64,000 nucleotides of DNA, taken from the NCBI RefSeq assembly GCF_947495255.1, contig NZ_CANLYI010000001.1:310001-374000 (forward strand), read 5' to 3'. Source of the DNA: an uncultured Winogradskyella sp. (lineage in GTDB: Bacteria; Bacteroidota; Bacteroidia; Flavobacteriales; Flavobacteriaceae). Shown here piece by piece: positions 3,069 to 64,000 of the stretch. Position numbers and translations under genes: made by a program. Each line of letters opens with the position of its first letter. Within the stretch, counting starts at the first letter, position 1. Below the pieces are notes generated by a model. It did not search any database and was not told the origin of the DNA. It worked only from the letters and a program-made list of their open reading frames with translations.

Positions 3069-5930
3069 ATGAAAAAAATTTACTTAGTACTTCTTTGTAT
3101 TAGTGTATCGTTTTTTGCTTTTGCACAAGTTACAATTACACCAAATCCGTTTGAAGTTAATGAAAGCATTACAATTACAGTAGACATTAATAGTAGTGCA
3201 ACAGACTGTAACGGATTGAGCAATCCAACCAAAGTATACATGCACTCTGGCGTAGGGGATGGATCTAATGCTTTTGGTATTAGTGTTGTTGGAAATTGGG
3301 GACAAGACGATGGTGTTGGAGAAATGACGAACCAAGGAGGAGGTATATTTAGTATTACTATTACTCCTGAAACTTACTATAGTTTAACAGCAGCACAAGC
3401 CGCTAATGTTATTCAAATGGGAATGGTTTTTAGAAGTGCAGACGGATCTCAAGAAATGAAAGCTAGTGGTTGTAGTGATTTTATATATGACGTGGGTACG
3501 TTTCAAGTAAGCCTAACATCACCTAGTAGCGATACAACCATATTAAATTCTGGCGAAGACTTAACAATTACTGCTACAAATATTGGTGGCAATGCAAGCT
3601 ACACACTTAAAGCTGATGGTACCATAATTGACACTAACAGTTCAACAAATAGTTACAGTTTTGTAGATTCTAACATTACAACAAATAAAAACTATGAGTT
3701 AATTACAGAATTAGGAGGCACTACAATAACCAAAACTTTTAGTGCATTAGTAGATCCAGGATCAAATATTGGTATTATGCCAATAACTTACCAAGAAGGT
3801 ATAACCTATATCGATGACAATACAGCTGTATTAGTACTTTACGCTTCTGGTAAAGATTTTGTATATGTAGCAGGTAGTTTTAATAACTGGCAACCAAATT
3901 CAACATTTGCCATGAAAAAAGACCCAACCAGAAATAATAAATTCTGGATAGAATTAACAGGTTTAACTCCAGGGCAAGTTGAAACTTATCAATATTGGGT
4001 TGTAGATAAAACACCTATTGCAAATTCACCTTCACTAGTTAAAACTGCAGACCCTTATTCTACATTAGTATTATCTCCTTTTGATGACCCTTATATTTCT
4101 GCAACAACATATCCTAACTTACCTACATATCCTGCTGGTCAAGAACGTGAAGTTACTGTTTTAGAAACTGGACAGACAGCATACAATTGGCAGGTTACTA
4201 ATTTCAGTAAACCTAAAAAAGAAGATTTAGTGATATATGAAGTTTTAGTTAGAGATTTTGATGCTAACCGAAACTATCAAGATATAATAGACAGAATCAA
4301 CTATTTTAAAAACCTTAATGTAAATGCTATCCAATTAATGCCTGTAATGGAATTTGAAGGAAACGAAAGTTGGGGTTACAACACGTCTTTCCATATGGCC
4401 TTAGATAAATTTTATGGTACTGAAGACAAACTTAAAGAACTTGTTGATGTATGTCACCAAAACGGAATAGCAGTTATCTTAGATATCGCATTTAACCACG
4501 CTTTTGGAAGAAATCCAATGGTTCGACTATGGATGAACGATCCTGATGGTGATGGTTGGGGTTCACCAAGCTCAGAAAACCCCTATTTTAATGAAGTTGC
4601 AATGCATAGTTATAGTGTTGGTGAAGATTTTGATCATTCTAATGCGAGAACTCAAGATTTTGTGGAGCGCACAGTTGAACATTGGATAAATGAATTTAAT
4701 ATCGATGGTTTCCGATGGGATTTAACAAAAGGATTTACTCAAAACTGTACAGCTGGAGATGAAAGTTGCACAAATGGCTACCAACAAGATCGCGTAGATA
4801 TTTTAAAAGCATACGCAGATTATTCTTGGTCTTTAGATGCTGATCATTATGTTATTTTTGAGCATTTAGGTTCAGATACTGAAGAAAAACAATGGGCTAA
4901 TTATCGTTTAGACGAAGACAAAGGAGTAATGATGTGGGGAAAAATGACAGATCCTTACAATGAGTTAACCATGGGTCAAAATGGTGATAAAAATATAGAC
5001 AGAATCGGTCATACAGCACATACTGGTTTTAATGGCCCTAGAGTTGTTGGTTATCCTGAAAGTCATGATGAAGAACGATTAATGTATAAAAATATCGCTT
5101 ATGGTAACACAAGTAATTCTTCACATAATGTTCAGAATTTAAATATTGCATTATCTAGAATGTCTGCATTAGGTGCAGTATCATCAATGGTTCCTGGACC
5201 AAAAATGATATGGCATTTTGGAGAACTTGGTATGGATAATTCAATTTTTACTTGTAATGACGGAAGTTACAATAACGATGGTTGTAAATTAGATACTAAA
5301 CCACAACCACAATGGACTGAAAACTGGTTAACAGAAGCACTTAGAGCACAAATCTATGAGGATTGGTCTAAGTTACACAAACTTAAAATTGAAGAACCTG
5401 TTTTTGAAGGTGACTACACTATTTCGTCAGGTAACTATACACCTAGAATTGATATTTTTGATAATTCAATACCAAACACAGAGCTTAAAAATGTCATCAT
5501 TCTTGCAAACTTTGATGTTGTTTCTCAAACGGTAAACACAAACTTTCCGAGTGGAGTAACTTCTACTTGGTACGATTTAATGGATCCAACCGGAAACACA
5601 ACTGTAGCGAATTCTACAACCACAATTTCTATTCCTGCTGGTCAGTTTAGAATTTTAGGGAATAAAGCTTCAGATGTATTAAGTGTTCAAAACGAAACAC
5701 TAATTGGGTTTAGTTTATATCCTAATCCAACTCAATCAACTTTTAATATGAATATGAATGTTTCTAAGGTTGAAATTTACGATTTAACCGGAAAATTAGT
5801 GAAGTCATTTAATGGCGAGTTTACTAAAACTGATAGTTTTGATATTTCTACATTAAATTCAGGAATGTATATGGTTAAAGTTCAAAATGACAACAATCAA
5901 ATACTAACAACTAAGTTGATTAAACAATAA
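3069..5930 (+). CDS. Secreted GH13 alpha-amylase with CBM48-like domain and type IX sorting domain
   Basis: 953 residues. It has a signal peptide (MKKIYLVLLCISVSFFAFAQ), an N-terminal beta-sandwich, and a CBM48/E-set-like domain around residues 260-345 (VYVAGSFNNWQ). The GH13 barrel spans roughly 375-800. The four GH13 regions are visible: DIAFNHAF at 472-479; GFRWD with the likely nucleophile Asp551; the acid/base Glu598 in FEHLG; and SHD at 665-667. The last ~75 residues (LYPNPTQ..., ending TKLIKQ) form a type A C-terminal sorting domain for the type IX system. The enzyme is therefore predicted to be secreted or anchored outside the cell, unlike the lipoprotein SusG of Bacteroides. It would cut alpha-1,4-glucan for the SusC/D importer. 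Confidence 0.92.
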   Translation: MKKIYLVLLCISVSFFAFAQVTITPNPFEVNESITITVDINSSATDCNGLSNPTKVYMHSGVGDGSNAFGISVVGNWGQDDGVGEMTNQGGGIFSITITPETYYSLTAAQAANVIQMGMVFRSADGSQEMKASGCSDFIYDVGTFQVSLTSPSSDTTILNSGEDLTITATNIGGNASYTLKADGTIIDTNSSTNSYSFVDSNITTNKNYELITELGGTTITKTFSALVDPGSNIGIMPITYQEGITYIDDNTAVLVLYASGKDFVYVAGSFNNWQPNSTFAMKKDPTRNNKFWIELTGLTPGQVETYQYWVVDKTPIANSPSLVKTADPYSTLVLSPFDDPYISATTYPNLPTYPAGQEREVTVLETGQTAYNWQVTNFSKPKKEDLVIYEVLVRDFDANRNYQDIIDRINYFKNLNVNAIQLMPVMEFEGNESWGYNTSFHMALDKFYGTEDKLKELVDVCHQNGIAVILDIAFNHAFGRNPMVRLWMNDPDGDGWGSPSSENPYFNEVAMHSYSVGEDFDHSNARTQDFVERTVEHWINEFNIDGFRWDLTKGFTQNCTAGDESCTNGYQQDRVDILKAYADYSWSLDADHYVIFEHLGSDTEEKQWANYRLDEDKGVMMWGKMTDPYNELTMGQNGDKNIDRIGHTAHTGFNGPRVVGYPESHDEERLMYKNIAYGNTSNSSHNVQNLNIALSRMSALGAVSSMVPGPKMIWHFGELGMDNSIFTCNDGSYNNDGCKLDTKPQPQWTENWLTEALRAQIYEDWSKLHKLKIEEPVFEGDYTISSGNYTPRIDIFDNSIPNTELKNVIILANFDVVSQTVNTNFPSGVTSTWYDLMDPTGNTTVANSTTTISIPAGQFRILGNKASDVLSVQNETLIGFSLYPNPTQSTFNMNMNVSKVEIYDLTGKLVKSFNGEFTKTDSFDISTLNSGMYMVKVQNDNNQILTTKLIKQ

Positions 5931-5951
5931 TTAATAAGTGTTTTTTATATT

Positions 5952-5988
5952 AAAAAAAGGAGTTTCTTTAGTTAGAAACTCCTTTTTT
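5952..5988 (+). terminator. Rho-independent terminator after the amylase gene
   Basis: A strong hairpin pairs AAAAAAGGAGTTTCT with AGAAACTCCTTTTTT around the loop TTAGTT, 22 bp after the amylase stop. It closes the starch locus. The A-rich left arm would also allow some termination from the other strand. Confidence 0.88.
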
Positions 5989-6091
5989 GTTTTCAACAAT
6001 TTCCTTCATATTTCAAAGAAGTCATTGTTAGTGATAATGCCTAAAGAATGTATTTATTCCTATGGATTAATCAATGAAACACTAAAGTTAA

Positions 6092-6099
6092 TATATTTG
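6092..6099 (+). promoter_or_regulatory. Possible -7 box upstream of the sugar permease gene
   Basis: TATATTTG fits the Bacteroidota -7 consensus TAnnTTTG and lies 95 bp before the permease start. No good -33 TTTG is visible at the expected distance, so this is a weak call. Confidence 0.35.
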
Positions 6100-6194
6100 T
6101 TACTCAAGCTTTCAAGAAAATCAACAATAATATTATAACTTGATTTAGTAATACGTACCAAATCGAATAAACGACACTAACTAATCTAGAGACT

Positions 6195-53804: not shown

Positions 53805-54134
53805 TTAAGCAGCTACAACACTGCCTGTTGCAATATTTGTATTGTTTGATGTTTCTTGTTTTGGTTTTTCTGTTTTAAAATGCTGATATAATTCTTTACA
53901 CCCTAAGCCAGTTATAGATAATATCTTTGATTTAGTGATAGATTCGTTATGCAATCTAGCCAAAGCCATTACACCTGCTCTATCAATACTTCTTACACCT
54001 TCAATATCTAATAGTACTTCATCTAATTTATCGAAGATATTAGCAAAGTACAAATTGAAAGTCTTTAAATTTACTTTATTTAAAGTTCCTTTTACTTGGT
54101 AACGATTATTACTGTTTGTTATTTCTAAATCCAT
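53805..54134 (-). CDS. Stand-alone STAS-domain protein
   Basis: 109 residues, cytoplasmic. A STAS (anti-sigma-antagonist) fold is suggested by LNKVNLKTFNLYFANIFDKLDEVLLDI and by the loop and helix GVRSIDRAGVMALARLHNES. In SpoIIAA-like antagonists this loop is D-S-S-G with a phosphorylatable serine. Here it is D-R-A-G, so that phosphorylation site is missing. The C-terminus is a low-complexity tail. No partner kinase or sigma factor is in the window. Confidence 0.78.
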   Translation of the reverse strand: MDLEITNSNNRYQVKGTLNKVNLKTFNLYFANIFDKLDEVLLDIEGVRSIDRAGVMALARLHNESITKSKILSITGLGCKELYQHFKTEKPKQETSNNTNIATGSVVAA

Positions 54135-55466: not shown

Positions 55467-56432
55467 TTATATGAATACCTCAAGTAGTTTTGACCCTTGA
55501 GAATTAAACTCAACTGAATCTGTATTTGCAGGAACCAAAATAGTTTCGCCCATAGTTACAACCTCTGTTAGATTATTAACGGTTACTTCTGCAGTCCCTT
55601 CAACACACATAAATATGACAAAAGAATCTAAATAGCTATAATCTCTTTTTTGATTTGCTTTAACTTCAAAAATATTTGTGGTAAAAAAATCGCAATCGAC
55701 TAAATTACTGGTTTTGTTTTCTTCTAACTGATAATTACTTTTTCCGTTAGAAGGAAAAGATTTAGTTGCTCCTATTGCAGAAACTGTATGTAGTTCTCTT
55801 TGCTCACCAGCAGCATCAGTTCTGTCCCAATCATAAACACGATATGTGATATCACTTGTTTGTTGAATCTCTGCAGCTAAAACACCTGCACCAATGGCAT
55901 GGATTTTTCCTGCTGGAATAAAATAACTATCGCCTTGTTTTACTTTTTCTGTATTAAAAATTTCATCAACGTTAGAAGCATTAATTTCACTTAATACATT
56001 TTTATCTATATCATTATCTTTTAAGCCTAATACAATTTCAGCATCTTCATCACTATTCATTATATACCACATTTCAGTTTTGCCAAAAGAATTGTGCTTC
56101 GCTTTTGACATTTCATCATCTGGGTGCACTTGTACAGATAAATTAGTTTTAGCATCTAAAAACTTAATTAATAATGGGAAATTTTCTCCGAAAACATCAA
56201 TATTCTGTTTTCCTAAAAATTCACTTTTATGAAGTTTAATTAAATCATTTAAAGATTTACCTTTATAAAGCCCATTTGCAACTGTAGAAATATTGTCTTC
56301 AACACCAGAAATCTCCCAGCTTTCACCAACATTTTTTAAATCTGTTTTTTTATTTAAAATCTCAGAAAGTTTTTCTCCTCCCCAAATTTTCTCTTTTAGT
56401 ATAGGTGCGAATTTTATCGGATATGCTTGCAT
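55467..56432 (-). CDS. manA: Class I mannose-6-phosphate isomerase
   Basis: 321 residues, the short type I form. The zinc ligands are seen in SVQVHPDDE, GKTEMWYIM and IPAGKIHAIG. The product interconverts fructose-6-P and mannose-6-P, the entry to GDP-mannose and mannose-containing glycans. The gene lies 12 bp downstream of the short glycosyltransferase-like gene and 525 bp from the receiver-glycosyltransferase fusion, all on the minus strand. I take it as part of this glycan cluster. Confidence 0.93.
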   Translation of the reverse strand: MQAYPIKFAPILKEKIWGGEKLSEILNKKTDLKNVGESWEISGVEDNISTVANGLYKGKSLNDLIKLHKSEFLGKQNIDVFGENFPLLIKFLDAKTNLSVQVHPDDEMSKAKHNSFGKTEMWYIMNSDEDAEIVLGLKDNDIDKNVLSEINASNVDEIFNTEKVKQGDSYFIPAGKIHAIGAGVLAAEIQQTSDITYRVYDWDRTDAAGEQRELHTVSAIGATKSFPSNGKSNYQLEENKTSNLVDCDFFTTNIFEVKANQKRDYSYLDSFVIFMCVEGTAEVTVNNLTEVVTMGETILVPANTDSVEFNSQGSKLLEVFI

Positions 56433-56444
56433 AATTTTTTTCTT

Positions 56445-56930
56445 TTAAAGATTTGTTTGAAACTGAAGCTTGATGAAAATGTTATTTTCTTTTATTTTTT
56501 TTAAATAATCGAGTAGTGAGAATACGCTCTGAAATAAGGTTTGCTTCTTTTTTAAAGTCTTCATATTATAATTTAAAATAGCATCTTGGTTTTCAGTTAT
56601 AACCTCTATTAAGCCATTTAAACCATGGTATTTAATATTTAACATGTTGGTAGAAACATAACCTAAATGCTTTAAATTAAACTCGTTAAACATAAATCTT
56701 GCTCCTGCTTTTACGGCAGACATATCAGACTTAAATTTTCTAACATTAACTACCGAAACATTATCACATTCATCCTTTACATCCCTTAACAAATCATAGG
56801 TATTATCTTTACTATCATTATTTACGAGGCACAGTTCTAAATTTCTAGTCTGTTTAATTTGATGAATGAAATAATCAATATCCATTTCTTTTTCGTTATT
56901 GTGAAAGATTATAATAATACCGGTTTTCAT
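56445..56930 (-). CDS. Degenerate GT2-like protein lacking the DxD motif
   Basis: 161 residues with a GT-A-like nucleotide-sugar half only. It lines up by eye with the GT2 domain of the next gene: CLVNNDSKDNTYDLL against CFVNDGSKDKTLEVL. At the metal site, GYVSTNML (residues 90-97) stands where the neighbour has GFLDADLS. Both DxD aspartates are lost, and so are the C-terminal acceptor elements. It is therefore probably inactive as a transferase and may bind or regulate the active fusion protein. It lies 27 bp downstream of that gene in the same direction. Confidence 0.75.
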   Translation of the reverse strand: MKTGIIIIFHNNEKEMDIDYFIHQIKQTRNLELCLVNNDSKDNTYDLLRDVKDECDNVSVVNVRKFKSDMSAVKAGARFMFNEFNLKHLGYVSTNMLNIKYHGLNGLIEVITENQDAILNYNMKTLKKKQTLFQSVFSLLDYLKKIKENNIFIKLQFQTNL

Positions 56931-56957: not shown

Positions 56958-58142
56958 TTAGGCTACTTTTAAGTTGTTTGAAACTGCTGCTTTTGTGTTT
57001 TGTTTTTTATTTCTATACACCCAAGCTATTTGACCTAATTGACCAACAATCTTTACGGAATCTTTCATAGATAATTTAGATCCATCAGCATGTATCCATC
57101 TTTTTAATGGTTGCTCACATAACATGGCTTTTGCTTTCTTTAACCCGAAGTGGATACTCATTCTTTTAAAGATTTCTACATCAAAAATCCATTGCGTTAC
57201 AAACTTTTCGCCAAAGGCAATATCAATAACATCTTTATGGAAAATTTTTGCACCACATTGCGTGTCTTTAAAATCCATTTTTAAAATCTTTCTGATAATA
57301 AAGTTGATGGTTAAACTGATTATTTTTCGTGCAGATTCTTTAGTAATGTTTGCTCCCATTCTAGAGATACGCGACCCACTTACTATTTTAAAATCTGAAG
57401 TTTCAATAGTTTTTACTAAATCATCAAAATCTGCTAAGTCTGTAGATAAATCGGCATCTAAAAAACCGATGTAGTCTAAGTCTTCTTTTTTAGCCATGTG
57501 TAACATTCCTAAACGAACCGCTTCAGCTTTTCCTCCATTCTTCTCACAATCGTATACAGTGATAAAATCTTCTCTTCCTTTTTGTAAGTCTTTTAAAACT
57601 TCTAAGGTTTTATCTTTACTTCCGTCATTTACAAAACACAAATGGTAACCAGAATTCTTATCGATATAAGTTAAGAACTCATCACTTAACAAACGTTCTT
57701 CTTCATTATAACATGGAATAACAACACCAACACAACGTTCTTGAATCATTACATCACTTTTTGTAATGATATTTTTAGTTTCTGGCGTACCAATTAAGCG
57801 TTTTACACGAGCACTAATTTCGTTTAAGCTTAAAGGCTTTTTCATATAATCATCAATACCAAGTTCAAAAGCTTGAGTGATGGTATCATCTTTAGTATTA
57901 CCTGAAAGAATCATTATTGGTGTTTCATCATTTTTAGTATTTCTGATATACTTAACCACTTCTAATCCTGACACTCTAGGCATGTTAATATCTACAATAA
58001 CTAAATCTGGACTAAAAGATTCATATAATTCTAATCCTTTAGAAGCATCAGTTTCTATCTTTACTTCGTAACCTAGTTCTAATAATCTTTTCTCTAATGG
58101 AAGTAAAACTAATTGTTGGTCATCTATGGCTAAAACTTTCAT
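56958..58142 (-). CDS. Response-regulator receiver domain fused to a GT2 glycosyltransferase
   Basis: 394 residues in two complete domains. The receiver (1-120) has the acidic pair D7-D8, phospho-acceptor D51 in VIVDINMP, S80, and K102-P103. After a short linker, residues ~133-385 form a dolichyl-phosphate-sugar-synthase-like GT2: GVVIPCYNEEERL, FVNDGSKDKT, and the metal motif D229-A-D231 in GFLDADLS. The later segments are TQCGAKIFHKDV and QWIFDVEIFKRM. No membrane helix is obvious. The natural reading is a glycosyltransferase gated by phosphorylation from an unlinked histidine kinase. It is divergent from the large membrane-protein gene. Confidence 0.92.
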   Translation of the reverse strand: MKVLAIDDQQLVLLPLEKRLLELGYEVKIETDASKGLELYESFSPDLVIVDINMPRVSGLEVVKYIRNTKNDETPIMILSGNTKDDTITQAFELGIDDYMKKPLSLNEISARVKRLIGTPETKNIITKSDVMIQERCVGVVIPCYNEEERLLSDEFLTYIDKNSGYHLCFVNDGSKDKTLEVLKDLQKGREDFITVYDCEKNGGKAEAVRLGMLHMAKKEDLDYIGFLDADLSTDLADFDDLVKTIETSDFKIVSGSRISRMGANITKESARKIISLTINFIIRKILKMDFKDTQCGAKIFHKDVIDIAFGEKFVTQWIFDVEIFKRMSIHFGLKKAKAMLCEQPLKRWIHADGSKLSMKDSVKIVGQLGQIAWVYRNKKQNTKAAVSNNLKVA

Positions 58143-58172
58143 AATAATTGTATTTGTTCGTTATTTACAGGT

Positions 58173-58180
58173 CAAAAGTA
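58173..58180 (-). promoter_or_regulatory. Possible -7 box of the receiver-glycosyltransferase gene
   Basis: On the minus strand TACTTTTG fits TAnnTTTG, 30 bp before the start codon. No -33 TTG stands at the usual distance. Confidence 0.4.
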
Positions 58181-58322
58181 CTTGAGAAGAAGGCTCTAAA
58201 ATTTAAATTTAGCCGAACCTATATTTTAGTGTAGACGAATGGTAGATTGCTATAGACAATTAAAAATAGAACCACTATCTAAATTATATATCTTTACCAT
58301 ATCAATATAGCTTAGGCTTTTA

Positions 58323-61300
58323 ATGAAGGAAACCTCAAATAAATACTTAATATCTGCGCTGCTTTTAGGATTAGCATTTCATGGTAGTTCCATATTTTTT
58401 ACTTTGGAAACGACTTACGATGCCTTAATCCATTTATTCTTTGCAGACCACTATGCTAATAGTTGGTTTGAACCATGGAATTATGAGTGGTACACAGGTT
58501 TTACCGTACAGAGTTATCCACCTTTAGTACATCAATCTATAGGACTACTCTCTATGATTGGAGGCTTAAAGTTTGGGATGTTTAGCGTTGCACTAATAGC
58601 TATTGTACTTTTTATAACAGGAACGTATCGTTTCTCTTTATTAATGACAGGCAATAAAACCGTTGCAGGCTACGCCTCTCTATTAGCAGTATTTTCATCA
58701 TCATTTGTAGAAACCTTGCATATTTTTGGGCAATTACCAAGCATTGTTGGGGTCTCAGTATTAATGCATGCCTTACCAGAAATCTATCTTTGGTTAAAAA
58801 CAGGCAAGAAATGGTATTTAGCAACTTCATTATCTCTAATTGCTGTGACCGTGACTTCGCATCATGTGACACCCATTTTTGGAATGGTTTTTTTCATCTT
58901 TCCTTTAATAGGTATGGTAATTATGGATGTTTCTAGAGAGCAGGTGAACTCAATGAATGAAGTGAATTTTAAACTATTTCTGAATACTTTTTTCAAGCTC
59001 TTTAAACGTATTGTGAGCTTTGGGATGTTATCTCTAGTTTTAATTATAGGTTGCATTTTTCCCTATTGGTTAAACTCTAAAGCCAACCCAATTACTCAGG
59101 TTCCAATTCCACATGGTTCTAGAGATAATTTTTTAGAAATCACATCTTCCGGATTAGTTTTCTTTCTTATTCCTTGGGGAATCTTATTGGTATTGCTACC
59201 ATATATATTTTACAGATACTATAGCAAACGTTACTTGTTTTTTGGTTTATCGGTTACTATTTGCACCATTTTAGGAACAGGAGGCACAACCTCTATTCCA
59301 TTAAAAATGTTAGGTGAAACCGCATTCAACATTCTAACGCTAGACCGTTTTACGCTTTGGGCTTCTATCTTATCCATTCCGTTAATGGGAGAATTTGCCT
59401 ATCGTTTTGTGGAAGGCGATTTAAAAGAATTAATCCAAGAGAAGTTTGGAGCAGTTTACCACAGAATTATTGGCGGCATTTTAGCTGGCTTAATGGTATT
59501 TATGGTCGTATTTACCATGAGTTTAAACTACTTTAGACCATCGCAACCACAGAAAATAAAGATGTTGCCTATTGTGAATTTCTTAAATCAAGATGACCAC
59601 GATAAATGGCGATTTTTAACTTTAGGTTTTGGTGACCAAATGGCTTGGTTGAGTGCTCAAACCAATGCTATGACTGTAGATGGAAATTACCATTCTGCAA
59701 GGCGATTACCAGAATTAACTACACGACCAATTGAGCGATTAGAAAATTCTAAATTTAAAGGTGTTGCAGGTATTGGTTCACTTCAGCAATTTTTAACCAC
59801 ACCAGAAAAATACAACCTCAAATACATTTTTTCTAACGACAAGTTTTACGACCCTATCCTCTACTTCTGTGGTTGGCAACGTTTGCGACAATTAGAAAAC
59901 GGCATTATGGTTTGGGAACGTCTCAATATTCCACCTGTTTCATCCATTTTACCTAAAGAAGATGTTGCTAAATGGCTAAAGATTCATTGGGGAATTGTGC
60001 CATTTTTAACCGTTCTGATTGCGTTTATTTTAAACATACAAATGCTTTGGGTTAACATGCTGAAAACACGCATTAAACCACTTCCAGACTTTTTAAACTT
60101 TTCTGTTTCCTATAAAAAATTTAATAAAACGGTATTACGAATCACACACATCTGGTCGCTAATTTTAGCCATCATTGTGTTTTATGGTATTTATTTATTC
60201 TATTTAAAAAACGACTCACAACGTAGTCCAGAAAATGCAATAATTGCGTATTATGATGCTCTAGATTTTAAAGAGTTTGAAAAAGCACATAGTTTAATCG
60301 ACCCAAACAATACTATTCCTATTGCGCAATACATGTTAGAAATTTCTGTGACAGATGGACTCTTAAGTAGCTATGCTAAAATGGATGCCATAGAAACCGA
60401 AATTACAAAACATAACGATAGTACGGTCTCTGCAAAAGTGATAAGCCAATGGATTACACCTTTAGAAAAAATTGAAAAAGTTGACTATAAAACGTTATCC
60501 AAACGTAAAGGGAAATGGTATTTACACCCAGACGATTTAAAAAACGATTTGCCGCCAGACCAATTATATTCAGACAATACAACACAGTATTTTAACCAAG
60601 GAAGACGACGTATTACTACCGAACAAACTCATCACGAAGACATTTTAAAACAACCCGTTTTAGAGGTCGTTTCAGCAAAATTGGTGCAATATGATGGTAG
60701 CTATGCTATTATTGGTGAAGTGCAAAATATAGATAATGTACCTGCAGATGTTATTTTAAAAGGAACACTATATAACGATGACAATAAGGAACTCGCAACA
60801 TATAATGCTAAGTATCATGTGAAGCACAAATTGATGCCTAAAGAATCTAGTAGTTTCCGAATTAACTTTGAAGGCATTGCATGGTCTAGAACCCAAGATT
60901 CTATTCCAGATACGTTTAATCCAGATGAATTTACACCTATAGAATTTGAAGAACAACCCACTAAATTTAACTTACAGGTAGCAGGAAATGTCTCTGGTTC
61001 TGATTTGTATAAAAACGTAGTTTTAAGCGATATCAATATTAATAAAGAAACCATGAATGGCAATCTTTTTAATAGTGGCATCCAGGAAATAACCATACCT
61101 CAACTATTAATAACGTATTACGACGAAAACAAAAACATGGTTTGGGTAGACCATTTATTTGTAAAAGCAGGCGTAAGACAACAACGTAAGCAAGATTTTG
61201 AATATACTATATTAAAAGATGGCAAAGTGAAAATCATTAACGGTAGCATGAAAAATATTTTTGTTAACGGCTTGCCTAATGAAGACATTTCAGATAAAAT

Positions 61301-61412
61301 AGTACCAAATAGAATATTAAATCATACCAATGCGCAATTACAACCCATTGACCATCCTGATTTTAGTTATATTAAAATAGAAATTAACACGTATATCGGA
61401 AGTCCTAATTAA
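58323..61412 (+). CDS. Large GT-C-like membrane protein with extracytoplasmic C-terminal domains
   Basis: 1029 residues. About ten membrane helices lie in residues 1-400, with the first loop TLETTYDALIHLFFADHYAN. This has acidic and His residues placed as in GT-C enzymes and 6-pyruvoyl-tetrahydropterin-synthase-related membrane proteins. Another helix pair lies around 555-580 and 615-635. After it comes an NTF2-like module (about 640-720; ENAIIAYYDALDFKEFEKAH) and then beta domains. The protein probably moves or transfers lipid-linked sugars, with the fusion GT encoded across the divergent promoter making the donor. The activity is an inference. Its stop overlaps the next ATG as TAATG. Confidence 0.7.
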   Translation: MKETSNKYLISALLLGLAFHGSSIFFTLETTYDALIHLFFADHYANSWFEPWNYEWYTGFTVQSYPPLVHQSIGLLSMIGGLKFGMFSVALIAIVLFITGTYRFSLLMTGNKTVAGYASLLAVFSSSFVETLHIFGQLPSIVGVSVLMHALPEIYLWLKTGKKWYLATSLSLIAVTVTSHHVTPIFGMVFFIFPLIGMVIMDVSREQVNSMNEVNFKLFLNTFFKLFKRIVSFGMLSLVLIIGCIFPYWLNSKANPITQVPIPHGSRDNFLEITSSGLVFFLIPWGILLVLLPYIFYRYYSKRYLFFGLSVTICTILGTGGTTSIPLKMLGETAFNILTLDRFTLWASILSIPLMGEFAYRFVEGDLKELIQEKFGAVYHRIIGGILAGLMVFMVVFTMSLNYFRPSQPQKIKMLPIVNFLNQDDHDKWRFLTLGFGDQMAWLSAQTNAMTVDGNYHSARRLPELTTRPIERLENSKFKGVAGIGSLQQFLTTPEKYNLKYIFSNDKFYDPILYFCGWQRLRQLENGIMVWERLNIPPVSSILPKEDVAKWLKIHWGIVPFLTVLIAFILNIQMLWVNMLKTRIKPLPDFLNFSVSYKKFNKTVLRITHIWSLILAIIVFYGIYLFYLKNDSQRSPENAIIAYYDALDFKEFEKAHSLIDPNNTIPIAQYMLEISVTDGLLSSYAKMDAIETEITKHNDSTVSAKVISQWITPLEKIEKVDYKTLSKRKGKWYLHPDDLKNDLPPDQLYSDNTTQYFNQGRRRITTEQTHHEDILKQPVLEVVSAKLVQYDGSYAIIGEVQNIDNVPADVILKGTLYNDDNKELATYNAKYHVKHKLMPKESSSFRINFEGIAWSRTQDSIPDTFNPDEFTPIEFEEQPTKFNLQVAGNVSGSDLYKNVVLSDININKETMNGNLFNSGIQEITIPQLLITYYDENKNMVWVDHLFVKAGVRQQRKQDFEYTILKDGKVKIINGSMKNIFVNGLPNEDISDKIVPNRILNHTNAQLQPIDHPDFSYIKIEINTYIGSPN

Positions 61413-62629
61413 TGATATTAAAACGCACATATTTGTTTATTCTAGCTTTGATTTTATTATCATCATTTGCTGTTGTTCAACAAAATGAAACGCTAATTAA
61501 AATTGAATTACTAAGCACACAAACTGAGTTTGAAGTTGGCAGTAGCATTGTTTTAAAATTTTCGGCTTCTAAAGAGGAACAACCTTTATTATATTGCTCT
61601 AACAGTTATGGTTCTACCGTAATTTCTTCAACATTAAAAAACAATATTCTAGAATTTTATATTCCTGAAAACATTACAAAAAAAATAGGTGTCGTAAATT
61701 GGAAATTGTTGAATGCAACCAATCCGCTTTCAGGTCAATTAAACATCAACCCAAAAGCAGAAGTGGCAACGTTAGAAACCTATATTGGTCCACCAAGTAT
61801 TGAAGCTGGCGAAACAGATTACACCATGTTAGTTGTAATTCCAACAGATTCATTAGACAATCCTGTACCAACTAATACTTTGGTAAAAGCAAAACATCAA
61901 TTTTTAGCTTCAGAAGAAACAAATGACATTTATACGAAGAATTTAATTTCATGGAGGAATATGTATTCTAAAAAAGAAAGTGGACGCATGCTAGTCTCAT
62001 CTGAAAGTATTGGTATTAATTCTAAAGAATTCACCATTAATGTCATGCCTGCAATCCCTACAGATTTCAAAATTTCTGCAACCAGACCACATGATTATGC
62101 AGATGGAAATCAAATAACCACATTTACCACTTCAATTATAAAAGACAAACAAAACAATGTAGTCAGTGATGGCACTTTTGTGACGTTTTTTATAAAAAAC
62201 AAAAACCAAAATATTTTAAAAACCACTGGTACAACTATTGATGGCATTGCAACTTCAAAAATGATTCATCCAGATTATGAAGATAATTGGAACGTTAAAG
62301 CCTATGTAGATGGCATGTCTGAGAGTAATAGTATTTCAGTGGATTACAAACAAGTTATTAAAGATTTTGATGTTGTTTTTTCTGAAAAAAACAGGTTGAT
62401 AACCGTTGGACCATTACAAAGCTTTATGCAACAAATGATTCCGGATGGATTGCATGTAAAACTTCATATTTACAAAAATAATTCGCGTATTGAAACATTA
62501 ACCAAAACCTCATTTAATGGTTATGTTAATTTCAAATTAAAGTCCGCTATTTACAACCATGGCAACTATGATTTCACCATTGAAACTGCCGGAATATCAA
62601 AAGAATTTAAAACAAAAAAACTATGGTAG
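61412..62629 (+). CDS. Exported Ig-like-domain protein
   Basis: 405 residues. The N-terminal hydrophobic signal (LFILALILLSSFAVVQQ) leads into several beta-sandwich domains with Ig-like character: FEVGSSIVLKFSASK, PTDSLDNPVPTNTLVKAK, and DKQNNVVSDGTFVTFF followed by DGIATSKM. The last two resemble invasin/Big-like domains. No catalytic motif is seen. It is coupled by overlap to the membrane protein upstream and the glycosidase downstream, so a structural or binding role in the same envelope complex is likely. Confidence 0.75.
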   Translation: MILKRTYLFILALILLSSFAVVQQNETLIKIELLSTQTEFEVGSSIVLKFSASKEEQPLLYCSNSYGSTVISSTLKNNILEFYIPENITKKIGVVNWKLLNATNPLSGQLNINPKAEVATLETYIGPPSIEAGETDYTMLVVIPTDSLDNPVPTNTLVKAKHQFLASEETNDIYTKNLISWRNMYSKKESGRMLVSSESIGINSKEFTINVMPAIPTDFKISATRPHDYADGNQITTFTTSIIKDKQNNVVSDGTFVTFFIKNKNQNILKTTGTTIDGIATSKMIHPDYEDNWNVKAYVDGMSESNSISVDYKQVIKDFDVVFSEKNRLITVGPLQSFMQQMIPDGLHVKLHIYKNNSRIETLTKTSFNGYVNFKLKSAIYNHGNYDFTIETAGISKEFKTKKLW

Positions 62630-64000
62630 GTCTTAGCAAAAACATAACGCGTACCATATTAATTGCCTCATATATTATGATTGTAGCCCTAATCATTTCT
62701 GGTGTAAGCGCATTATTTAGTTATCTAAATACAGGTGCAGACCGAAGCACCATGTTGCACACCGAAATTCAGAAAGTAGAACAATATTTACCAAAAGTTA
62801 GTTGGGAACCTTTAAAAAACGAAGGCCGACCAATGGATAACCAAACTTTAAACGCTTTACAAAGCGATTATTTAGATGCTTGGTATGTAAAACAAATTGC
62901 ATATAACACCAATAAAACCGCAGGTATTAAAGATTACTACACCGACAGTGCTAGAGAAAATTTATATAGTTTTATTGAATTAAATAAAGCTGAAAATATA
63001 ACTATTGAAGCAACCACACTTAAGCACAATCCTACTTTAGAGTTTTTTAGTCAAGATGGACAGTTAGCTGTTATTACAGACCGAAATGTTATAGAATACA
63101 AACGTGTTTTTAAAGCTGAAAAATTAGTTTTAGAAACAACAGAAACATCCAACTACAAAATTGTATTTTTATTAGAAGATGGGTTTTGGCGTATTAGGCA
63201 TATGGTTAAGGAAGACGCTAATATTTATGATAATAAGACCGAACCAATTTCAGTAGACAATTTAAATATAAAAGGCATTAACTACTATCCACAAGCCAAT
63301 CCTTGGAATATGTTTGGAGATGAATTTTCCGTAGATACCATTTCTAAAGACTTTAAAATTATTAAAGATGCCGGTTTAAATTCGGTACGACTGTTTGTGC
63401 AATATGAAGACTTTGGAAAAGAACATGTAAATCCTAAAAAACTAGAGAAGCTTAAACAGACTTTAGATGCAGCAGATGCTCATAATTTAAAAGTTGTTTT
63501 AACGTTATTTGATTTTTACGGCGATTATTCAGTAATGAGTTGGACGTTAAATCAACGTCACGCAGAAGCCATCGTTACAGCTGTAAAAGACCATAACGCA
63601 CTCTTAGCTTGGGATATTAAAAACGAACCGAATTTAGATTTTGAATCTAGACAAAAAGCCGTTGTGATTGCTTGGTTAGATAATATGATTGATTTAGTGA
63701 AATCAGTAGACAATGTGCATCCTGTTACCATTGGATGGTCTAACACGCAAAGTGCTTCGATTTTAAAAGATAAGGTAGATTTTGTATCGTTTCATTATTA
63801 TGAAGATTTAGAAAAATTAGACGATGCCATAAAAACCATGAAAACCAAAATACCAAATAAACCTTTAGTACTTCAGGAATTTGGATTGTCTTCTTATTCT
63901 GGTTTTTGGAAACCTTTTGGCTCATCTGATGAAGACCAAGCGAACTACCATAAAAAAATCCAAGAACAAATTGCAGCTAATAATTTGCAATTTATGTCTT
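62623..64000 (+). CDS. Membrane-anchored GH5-like (clan GH-A) glycosidase, 3' end outside the window
   Basis: 459 codons are visible without a stop. The start overlaps the previous gene by 7 bp. A signal-anchor lies at residues ~8-30 (ILIASYIMIVALIISGVSAL). It is followed by an NTF2-like module (about 80-200) and then a TIM barrel beginning IKGINYYPQANPWNMFGDE. The two acids of clan GH-A are in place: Glu335 in DIKNEPNLDF and Glu419 in LVLQEFGLSS, with the His-Tyr pair in VSFHYYEDL between them. It may trim or release the glycan made by this cluster. The substrate (beta-mannan or beta-glucan) is not determinable. Confidence 0.82.
   Translation, partial: MVGLSKNITRTILIASYIMIVALIISGVSALFSYLNTGADRSTMLHTEIQKVEQYLPKVSWEPLKNEGRPMDNQTLNALQSDYLDAWYVKQIAYNTNKTAGIKDYYTDSARENLYSFIELNKAENITIEATTLKHNPTLEFFSQDGQLAVITDRNVIEYKRVFKAEKLVLETTETSNYKIVFLLEDGFWRIRHMVKEDANIYDNKTEPISVDNLNIKGINYYPQANPWNMFGDEFSVDTISKDFKIIKDAGLNSVRLFVQYEDFGKEHVNPKKLEKLKQTLDAADAHNLKVVLTLFDFYGDYSVMSWTLNQRHAEAIVTAVKDHNALLAWDIKNEPNLDFESRQKAVVIAWLDNMIDLVKSVDNVHPVTIGWSNTQSASILKDKVDFVSFHYYEDLEKLDDAIKTMKTKIPNKPLVLQEFGLSSYSGFWKPFGSSDEDQANYHKKIQEQIAANNLQFMS

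Follow-up and report, generated by a model that had tools for sequence, protein, structure and literature searches.

A conserved response regulator of Flavobacteriaceae with a predicted lipid-phosphate-sugar-synthase output, encoded at a locus of surface-polysaccharide type

The gene analysed here lies near the end of a 64,000-nucleotide stretch of Winogradskyella DNA (the window). It encodes a receiver domain fused to a family 2 glycosyltransferase (REC-GT2) and is divergent from the gene of a 1029-residue membrane protein (the partner). The features of the locus are as follows:

55467..56432, minus strand: ManA, mannose-6-phosphate isomerase class I, next gene in the same direction, an optional member of the locus
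56445..56930, minus strand: truncated GT2-like protein of 161 residues without DXD motif
56958..58142, minus strand: REC-GT2 fusion protein of 394 residues (open reading frame with ATG start, Pfam domains, AlphaFold2 model)
57108..57731, minus strand: GT2 domain core, residues 138-345 (PF00535; of ArnC/GtrB/DPMS type by sequence and fold)
57789..58142, minus strand: receiver domain, residues 1-118, with D7, D8, D51, S80 and K102 (PF00072)
57990..57992, minus strand: codon of D51, the phospho-acceptor predicted from alignments
58143..58322: divergent intergenic region of 180 bp between the REC-GT2 and partner genes
58323..61412, plus strand: 1029-residue membrane protein, the conserved partner, possibly with a GT-C-like/PTPS-related N-terminal part and a beta-rich C-terminal part
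61412..62629, plus strand: 405-residue protein with a Big_1/invasin-like stretch below the Pfam cut-off, syntenic
62623..63999, plus strand, continuing to 64137 past the window end: TIM-barrel glycosidase-like protein of 504 residues, N-terminally anchored

Pfam recognised both domains of REC-GT2 in a single frame, Response_reg (PF00072) over residues 3-113 with 86.1 bits (cut-off 30.2) and Glycos_transf_2 (PF00535) over residues 140-306 with 77.3 bits (cut-off 23.3). The fusion that a first-pass annotation had read from the letters alone is thereby confirmed, and every residue it had named (D7, D8, D51, S80, K102, D229 and D231) is present in the window protein. The AlphaFold2 model, built with 47 sequences (mean pLDDT 79.2, pTM 0.71), comprises a receiver (residues 1-118) joined through a linker to a GT domain (138-345), with a long helix at the C-terminus (359-390). 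The receiver part matched OmpR-type receivers and Spo0F, was found to have a receiver fold in structure searches, and also brought matches to PleD and PorX. The GT2 core carries the motifs D229-A-D231, DTQCGAK (293-299) and FDVE (320-323). A chance, frame or assembly artefact is ruled out because the fusion recurs as one open frame across many genera with a low dN/dS.

The enzyme class of the GT part was assigned by comparison with known structures. In the PDB, phmmer matched it to ArnC (2.6e-7), GtrB (2.1e-6) and the Dol-P-Man synthase DPMS (5.9e-4). In the Foldseek ranking ArnC and GtrB came at the top and Dol-P-Man synthase in tenth place, behind a receiver, and VIA-align gave Z scores of about 20 over 209-218 residues, the best chains being those of GtrB, ArnC and DPMS. 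All three methods bear out the dolichyl-phosphate-sugar-synthase-like output anticipated in the first-pass annotation. Judged by sequence and by predicted model, the GT part belongs to the ArnC/GtrB/Dol-P-sugar-synthase fold class. ArnC, GtrB and the Pyrococcus Dol-P-Man synthase, which provide its best sequence and structure matches, share with it the GT2 fold and the DXD motif; they lack a receiver and have membrane helices at the C-terminus, whereas no transmembrane segment was predicted in the window REC-GT2 (best 19-residue window 0.92 against a threshold of 1.6). Some lipid-phosphate sugar synthases lack C-terminal membrane helices, so the lack of such helices lowers the case for membership of the ArnC/GtrB subtype and leaves that for the reaction class unchanged. 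Another family, PF13641, scored 25.6 bits in the window REC-GT2, below its Pfam cut-off of 27. In the C-terminal half, DTQCG(F/A)K and FDVE are what we take to be motifs of ALG5-type Dol-P-Glc synthases; DTQCGAK and FDVE are present and nearly invariant in REC-GT2s, a possible likeness to ALG5 at the level of motifs. The predicted reaction is probably the loading of a sugar onto polyprenyl phosphate or a membrane lipid.

The neighbouring genes provide a context for this activity. The partner of the window matches PF10131 with 8.8 bits (cut-off 26.4), and weak matches to the same family were obtained for 19 of 33 partner members at E up to 10, the best being 1.5e-4. PF10131 (PTPS_related) is presumably a GT-C-linked family, and GT-C enzymes are users of lipid-phosphate sugars. 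Foldseek returned weak matches of the partner model (mean pLDDT 62.6) to STT3, ArnT and PglB, with a best E of 6.2e-4, and phmmer found no match to the partner in the PDB at E 1. From sequence and model together, the partner is possibly GT-C-like. The glycosidase-like protein matches PF02836 with 37.3 bits and has a hydrophobic segment at its N-terminus. Beyond the window lie two GT4 genes, a Polysacc_synt_3 transporter, the second copy of REC-GT2 and an outer-membrane TPR protein that matches the PgaA model TIGR03939 at E 2.8e-10 (39.1 bits, cut-off 366.65). The block is kept at most of the loci fetched and is rearranged in some. The locus is of surface-polysaccharide type. Its likeness to Pga/Pel-type export loci lies in the PgaA-like TPR outer-membrane protein and the GT4 and Polysacc_synt_3 genes; those loci have a known second-messenger input, in place of which the REC-GT2 locus has a receiver. 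No processive synthase of PgaC/BcsA type was found among the locus genes scanned.

Two kinds of small proteins were observed at these loci. STAS-like proteins of about 90-130 residues are encoded in the window (53805-54134) and, in many loci, beside the flippase-like transporter gene; a second regulatory input at the locus is a possible role for them. A stand-alone receiver of 123 residues, which shares 59-65% identity with the REC domain of the fusion, is found directly before REC-GT2 in five Algibacter-type loci (L035, at 5779-6150, and L110, L111, L113 and L117).

The fusion recurs in other genomes, the point on which the first-pass annotation had staked its reading. Matches across both domains were found in 46 of the 199 Flavobacteriaceae genomes searched, with rows picked by hand and including G062 and G106, whose matches are truncated where the contig stops. 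A scan of named genome contigs, some of them metagenome-derived, yielded at least 80 REC-GT2 loci, each aligned from residue 1. Among the loci listed are members of Winogradskyella, Lacinutrix, Algibacter, Psychroserpens, Tamlana, Kordia, Polaribacter, Tenacibaculum, Lutibacter, Maribacter, Zobellia, Cellulophaga, Salegentibacter and others, and the nearest relative among the matches listed is that of W. eximia (98%). The second copy in the same genome, 11 kb further on, has 379 residues and 70% identity. Tandem or near-tandem pairs were also observed in L190, L191, L192, L195 and L201, one member being decayed or shortened in L195 and L201.

In a non-exhaustive sample of 395 genomes of the phylum, 16 had a match at E 1e-40, 12 of which were full fusions and 4 the GT part alone. 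A wide spread over the phylum is not supported by these numbers, 11 of the 12 full fusions being in Flavobacteriaceae and the remaining one, G348, belonging to a different family within that class. The distribution is patchy, because the only other genome of the same genus group that was searched, G157, has no REC-GT2. Spread by plasmids was rejected, as a tblastn search of 72,556 plasmid records gave no match at 1e-40. REC-GT2 is a genuine and conserved response regulator, confined for the most part to one lineage, and its predicted output is that of a lipid-phosphate sugar synthase.

We then compared the GT2s that accompany the partner, which occurs in 54 of the 199 Flavobacteriaceae genomes, 43 with and 11 without REC-GT2. 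Each of these 11 encodes a GT2 of 255-282 residues without a receiver (REC-less GT2), divergent and in the same place. REC-GT2 adjoins the partner divergently in 38 of the 54 rows examined, and a REC-less GT2 does so in 11 of 13. The non-divergent REC-GT2 rows correspond to second copies, to rearranged loci or to loci with another small gene in between; REC-GT2 and partner are on separate contigs in G196, G164 and G048, and in G196 a truncated GT2-like protein adjoins the partner. ManA, a TIGR00218 protein in the window (154.5 bits, cut-off 116.2), is found within three genes downstream at 6 of the 38 divergent REC-GT2 loci and 2 of the 11 REC-less ones. Being near in just 8 of 49 divergent loci, it is weak proof of a mannose donor.

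In a tree of GT domains, from which 18 truncated rows were excluded and where several long branches leave the placement of decayed copies unsure, one split (SH-aLRT 97) separates 60 REC-GT2 rows from 16 REC-less rows. On the partner tree (57 rows, one unlabelled, with SH-aLRT as the sole support), the REC/REC-less label needs 5 changes, at least 4 of them forced by the starred branches. The GT2 lineages being separate and the label changing repeatedly on the partner tree, different GT2s serve one type of partner. Read from these trees, lineages repeatedly switched their GT2 form, either because one form replaced the other or because an ancestor had both genes and one was later lost; the switches may reflect such differential loss and not replacement. 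Repeated switching argues that both forms do the same step, and suggests that the receiver is an optional control added to it.

The two forms differ in the helix preceding DTQCGAK, which is less hydrophobic in REC-GT2s (mean Kyte-Doolittle value 0.52, 54 rows) than in REC-less GT2s linked to the partner (1.28, 11 rows); with a mean of 0.51, five other GT2s resemble REC-GT2. The corresponding Mann-Whitney p of 2.3e-7 ignores relatedness and is not counted as evidence, and the contrast is one evolutionary event, in which the change may lie in the REC-less branch. A tighter standing membrane contact of the partner-linked REC-less GT2 would fit this hydrophobicity, which is suggestive only.

A source of phosphate for the receiver was sought in the same genomes. 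As the first-pass annotation had noted, no cognate kinase sits beside the gene: no HisKA match was found in the genome of the window between C1:278416 and C1:389727. The nearest kinases are 21.6 kb from the window REC-GT2 and 9.1 kb from the second copy, in a module made of a FIST protein, two kinases, a 105-residue HPt-like protein and a LytTR response regulator. The HPt-like protein of this genome matches PF01627 weakly (12.2 bits, cut-off 24.6); with an E limit of 10 the family was detected in 17 of 18 members (best 1.5e-5), and H55 is invariant in the 18. An ortholog of the FIST protein, with an identity of at least 53%, was found in 41 genomes, 29 of which have REC-GT2. When both are on the same contig they are less than 30 kb apart (6-25 kb) in 24 of 25 genomes, G100 being the exception; in four genomes they are on different contigs. 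At the 53% threshold, 17 of the 46 REC-GT2 genomes have no FIST ortholog, and eight genomes have the ortholog with neither REC-GT2 nor partner. In G113 the relay is 10.7 kb from REC-GT2 though no partner was found, and in G407 a LytTR ortholog is flanked by two REC-GT2 genes, of which one is decayed.

Of the 43 partner genomes that have REC-GT2, 26 also have the FIST ortholog, as do 4 of the 11 that lack REC-GT2, and in the REC-less G010, G076 and G180 the relay and the partner are 11-13 kb apart; the relay as a kinase specific to the REC form is therefore not upheld. The FIST-kinase-HPt-LytTR relay is a candidate phospho-source for REC-GT2. Tentatively, the phosphorelay (FIST, kinases, HPt) might set the polysaccharide directly through the receiver of the enzyme while LytTR would handle genes in parallel, at least four switches of GT2 form having taken place. 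As a separate observation, REC-GT2 of G521 is followed on its own strand by genes for an OmpR-type regulator and for a membrane histidine kinase (L194:6439-9854), and this kinase is a possible local one for REC-GT2.

Starting from the observed fusion, its recurrence, its intact motifs, the fold class of the GT part, the locus and the REC-less GT2s in the same place, we propose the following mechanism. REC-GT2 would be a response regulator with a cytoplasmic GT2 output like ArnC, GtrB and the Dol-P-sugar synthases, which would probably make a polyprenyl-phosphate sugar from a presumed donor and acceptor. D51 would be phosphorylated, perhaps by the linked kinase-HPt relay. The phosphorylated receivers would dimerise via their alpha4-beta5-alpha5 face, and active GT2 would thereby be assembled at the membrane, activation being the presumed direction of control. 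The divergent GT-C-like protein (58323-61412) would use the lipid sugar across the membrane, presumably to build or decorate a surface polysaccharide. The supply of lipid sugar would thereby be set without transcription. Gating of sugar transfer by D51 phosphorylation is plausible from the sequence, and the whole proposal, a lipid-sugar synthase gated by a phospho-receiver and feeding a GT-C-like partner for a surface polysaccharide, is the reading we favour, with modest confidence.

Conservation of the two halves bears on whether catalysis by the fused GT matters. In 47 REC-GT2 proteins of at least 350 residues (a set that excludes shorter ones and the G048, G062 and G106 copies, two of which run off a contig), 46 retain D229 and 44 retain D231, and the DXD motif is complete in 44. 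Six pairwise comparisons gave a dN/dS of about 0.1 for REC and of 0.02-0.05 for GT; two of them yielded identical values, the same gene probably being represented twice, and synonymous change was near saturation in most. REC evolves faster and GT is the more conserved half. Copies in G077, G113, G117 and G407 retain the receiver residues and have GT motifs altered or lost. By alignment, the copies with an altered or lost GT motif, and the motif that replaces DADLS, are:

L071:9337-10491, DAGLF
L075:9139-10275, DSQFI
L076:9348-10490, YPEML
L195:8212-9303, NEDLS

From their sequence these four may be response regulators whose glycosyltransferase output is dead. An extra copy in G075 shows changes in both the REC and GT parts.

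Since the receiver residues outlast the GT motifs in these four copies, REC can matter without catalysis in cis, and the receiver of the G077, G113, G117 and G407 copies may act in trans, or the copies may be in decay. Extended to the family, action in trans would mean that the fusion serves mainly to scaffold or localise, in a phospho-dependent way, the polysaccharide machinery or a truncated GT2-like partner, the sugar transfer of its own GT being constitutive or dispensable. Besides the four copies, the truncated GT2-like proteins without DXD speak for this. A neighbour of the type seen at 56445..56930 occurs at 11 of the 38 divergent REC-GT2 loci and at none of the 11 REC-less ones, a count that misses truncated kin matching REC-GT2 better, and in G117 the truncated GT2-like protein comes after the LytTR gene of the relay. 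Against it stand the completeness of DXD in 44 of 47 copies, the stronger conservation of the GT half, and the enzyme-like GT2 found beside the partner wherever REC-GT2 is missing. We consider action in trans unlikely as a general explanation. The truncated protein of the window is itself 31-34% identical to partner-linked REC-less GT2s and 27-30% to REC-GT2s. Kin of 123-222 residues without an intact DXD, likewise related to REC-less GT2, were observed in L051, L068, L075, L182, L196 and L200; remnants and small regulatory partners are both possible identities for proteins of this type.

Conservation of the receiver bears on a second alternative, in which this domain is structural or vestigial, rarely or never phosphorylated, and the fusion an ordinary constitutive polyprenyl-phosphate sugar synthase. 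The lack of an adjacent kinase in the window, the REC-less form serving the same locus elsewhere and the 17 REC-GT2 genomes lacking a FIST ortholog would fit such a receiver. The five residues of receiver chemistry (D7, D8, D51, S80 and K102) are, however, each invariant in 47 of 47 proteins, S80 and K102 included, the receiver has a dN/dS of about 0.1, and REC outlives the GT motifs in the four copies listed above. We hold a vestigial receiver to be improbable. G95, D98, K101, K102, E108 and R112, on a face which we take to be the site of OmpR/PhoB-type dimer contacts, are invariant in all 54 GT-intact REC-GT2 rows, six decayed rows having been removed beforehand. Among the elements listed in the REC-GT2 alignment, strand beta5 varies least and the linker most.

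Transfer of the sugar to a soluble or growing glycan, control then acting on chain building and not on lipid-sugar supply, is very unlikely: it would suit the missing transmembrane segment, the nearby GT4 genes, Polysacc_synt_3 transporter and PgaA-like porin, and the NCBIfam search, in which PgaC/IcaA (2.9e-13) came first, just ahead of ArnC (4.9e-12) and both far below cut-off, but polyprenyl- and dolichyl-phosphate enzymes lead the fold and phmmer matches of the GT domain, which is frequently paired, divergently, with a possibly GT-C-like protein of a class that uses lipid-phosphate sugars.

A receiver gating a lipid-sugar synthase, the favoured reading, can be set beside known systems. REC fused to a BcsA-like GT (PF13641) is described in three genera of Methanobacteriaceae, for instance MTH_548, and such archaeal REC fusions are said to have narrow phyletic distributions (PMC5847659). 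Those proteins resemble ours in combining receiver(s) with a GT2-type GT over a narrow range; they differ in that their GT is cellulose-synthase-like (PF13641; PMC5847659), whereas the window GT is a PF00535 domain of ArnC/GtrB/DPMS type found in Bacteroidota at a conserved polysaccharide-type locus. The first-pass statement that response regulators with enzyme outputs are known agrees with this case, and a REC-GT fusion as such has a precedent in Methanobacteriaceae (PMC5847659). Diguanylate cyclases of the PleD type and PorX also have an N-terminal receiver coupled to a catalytic domain, the output in REC-GT2 being a sugar transferase. PleD dimerises upon activation. A search of titles and abstracts found no description of REC-GT2 in Flavobacteriaceae, an earlier mention in reviews of response regulators being possible. 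Response regulators with enzyme outputs are already known, and an output of ArnC/GtrB/DPMS type in Bacteroidota is a new variant.

Two-component control of polysaccharides usually means control of transcription or of c-di-GMP. With a receiver placed on a predicted lipid-sugar synthase, a signal could set the biosynthetic step at once. Related genera with a REC-less enzyme at this locus offer a natural comparison of switched and unswitched forms, and relatives are found in many cultured marine genera, which opens the question to simple mutants and an enzyme assay. If the prediction from sequence holds, a signal could directly turn on the production of surface sugars in many marine bacteria.
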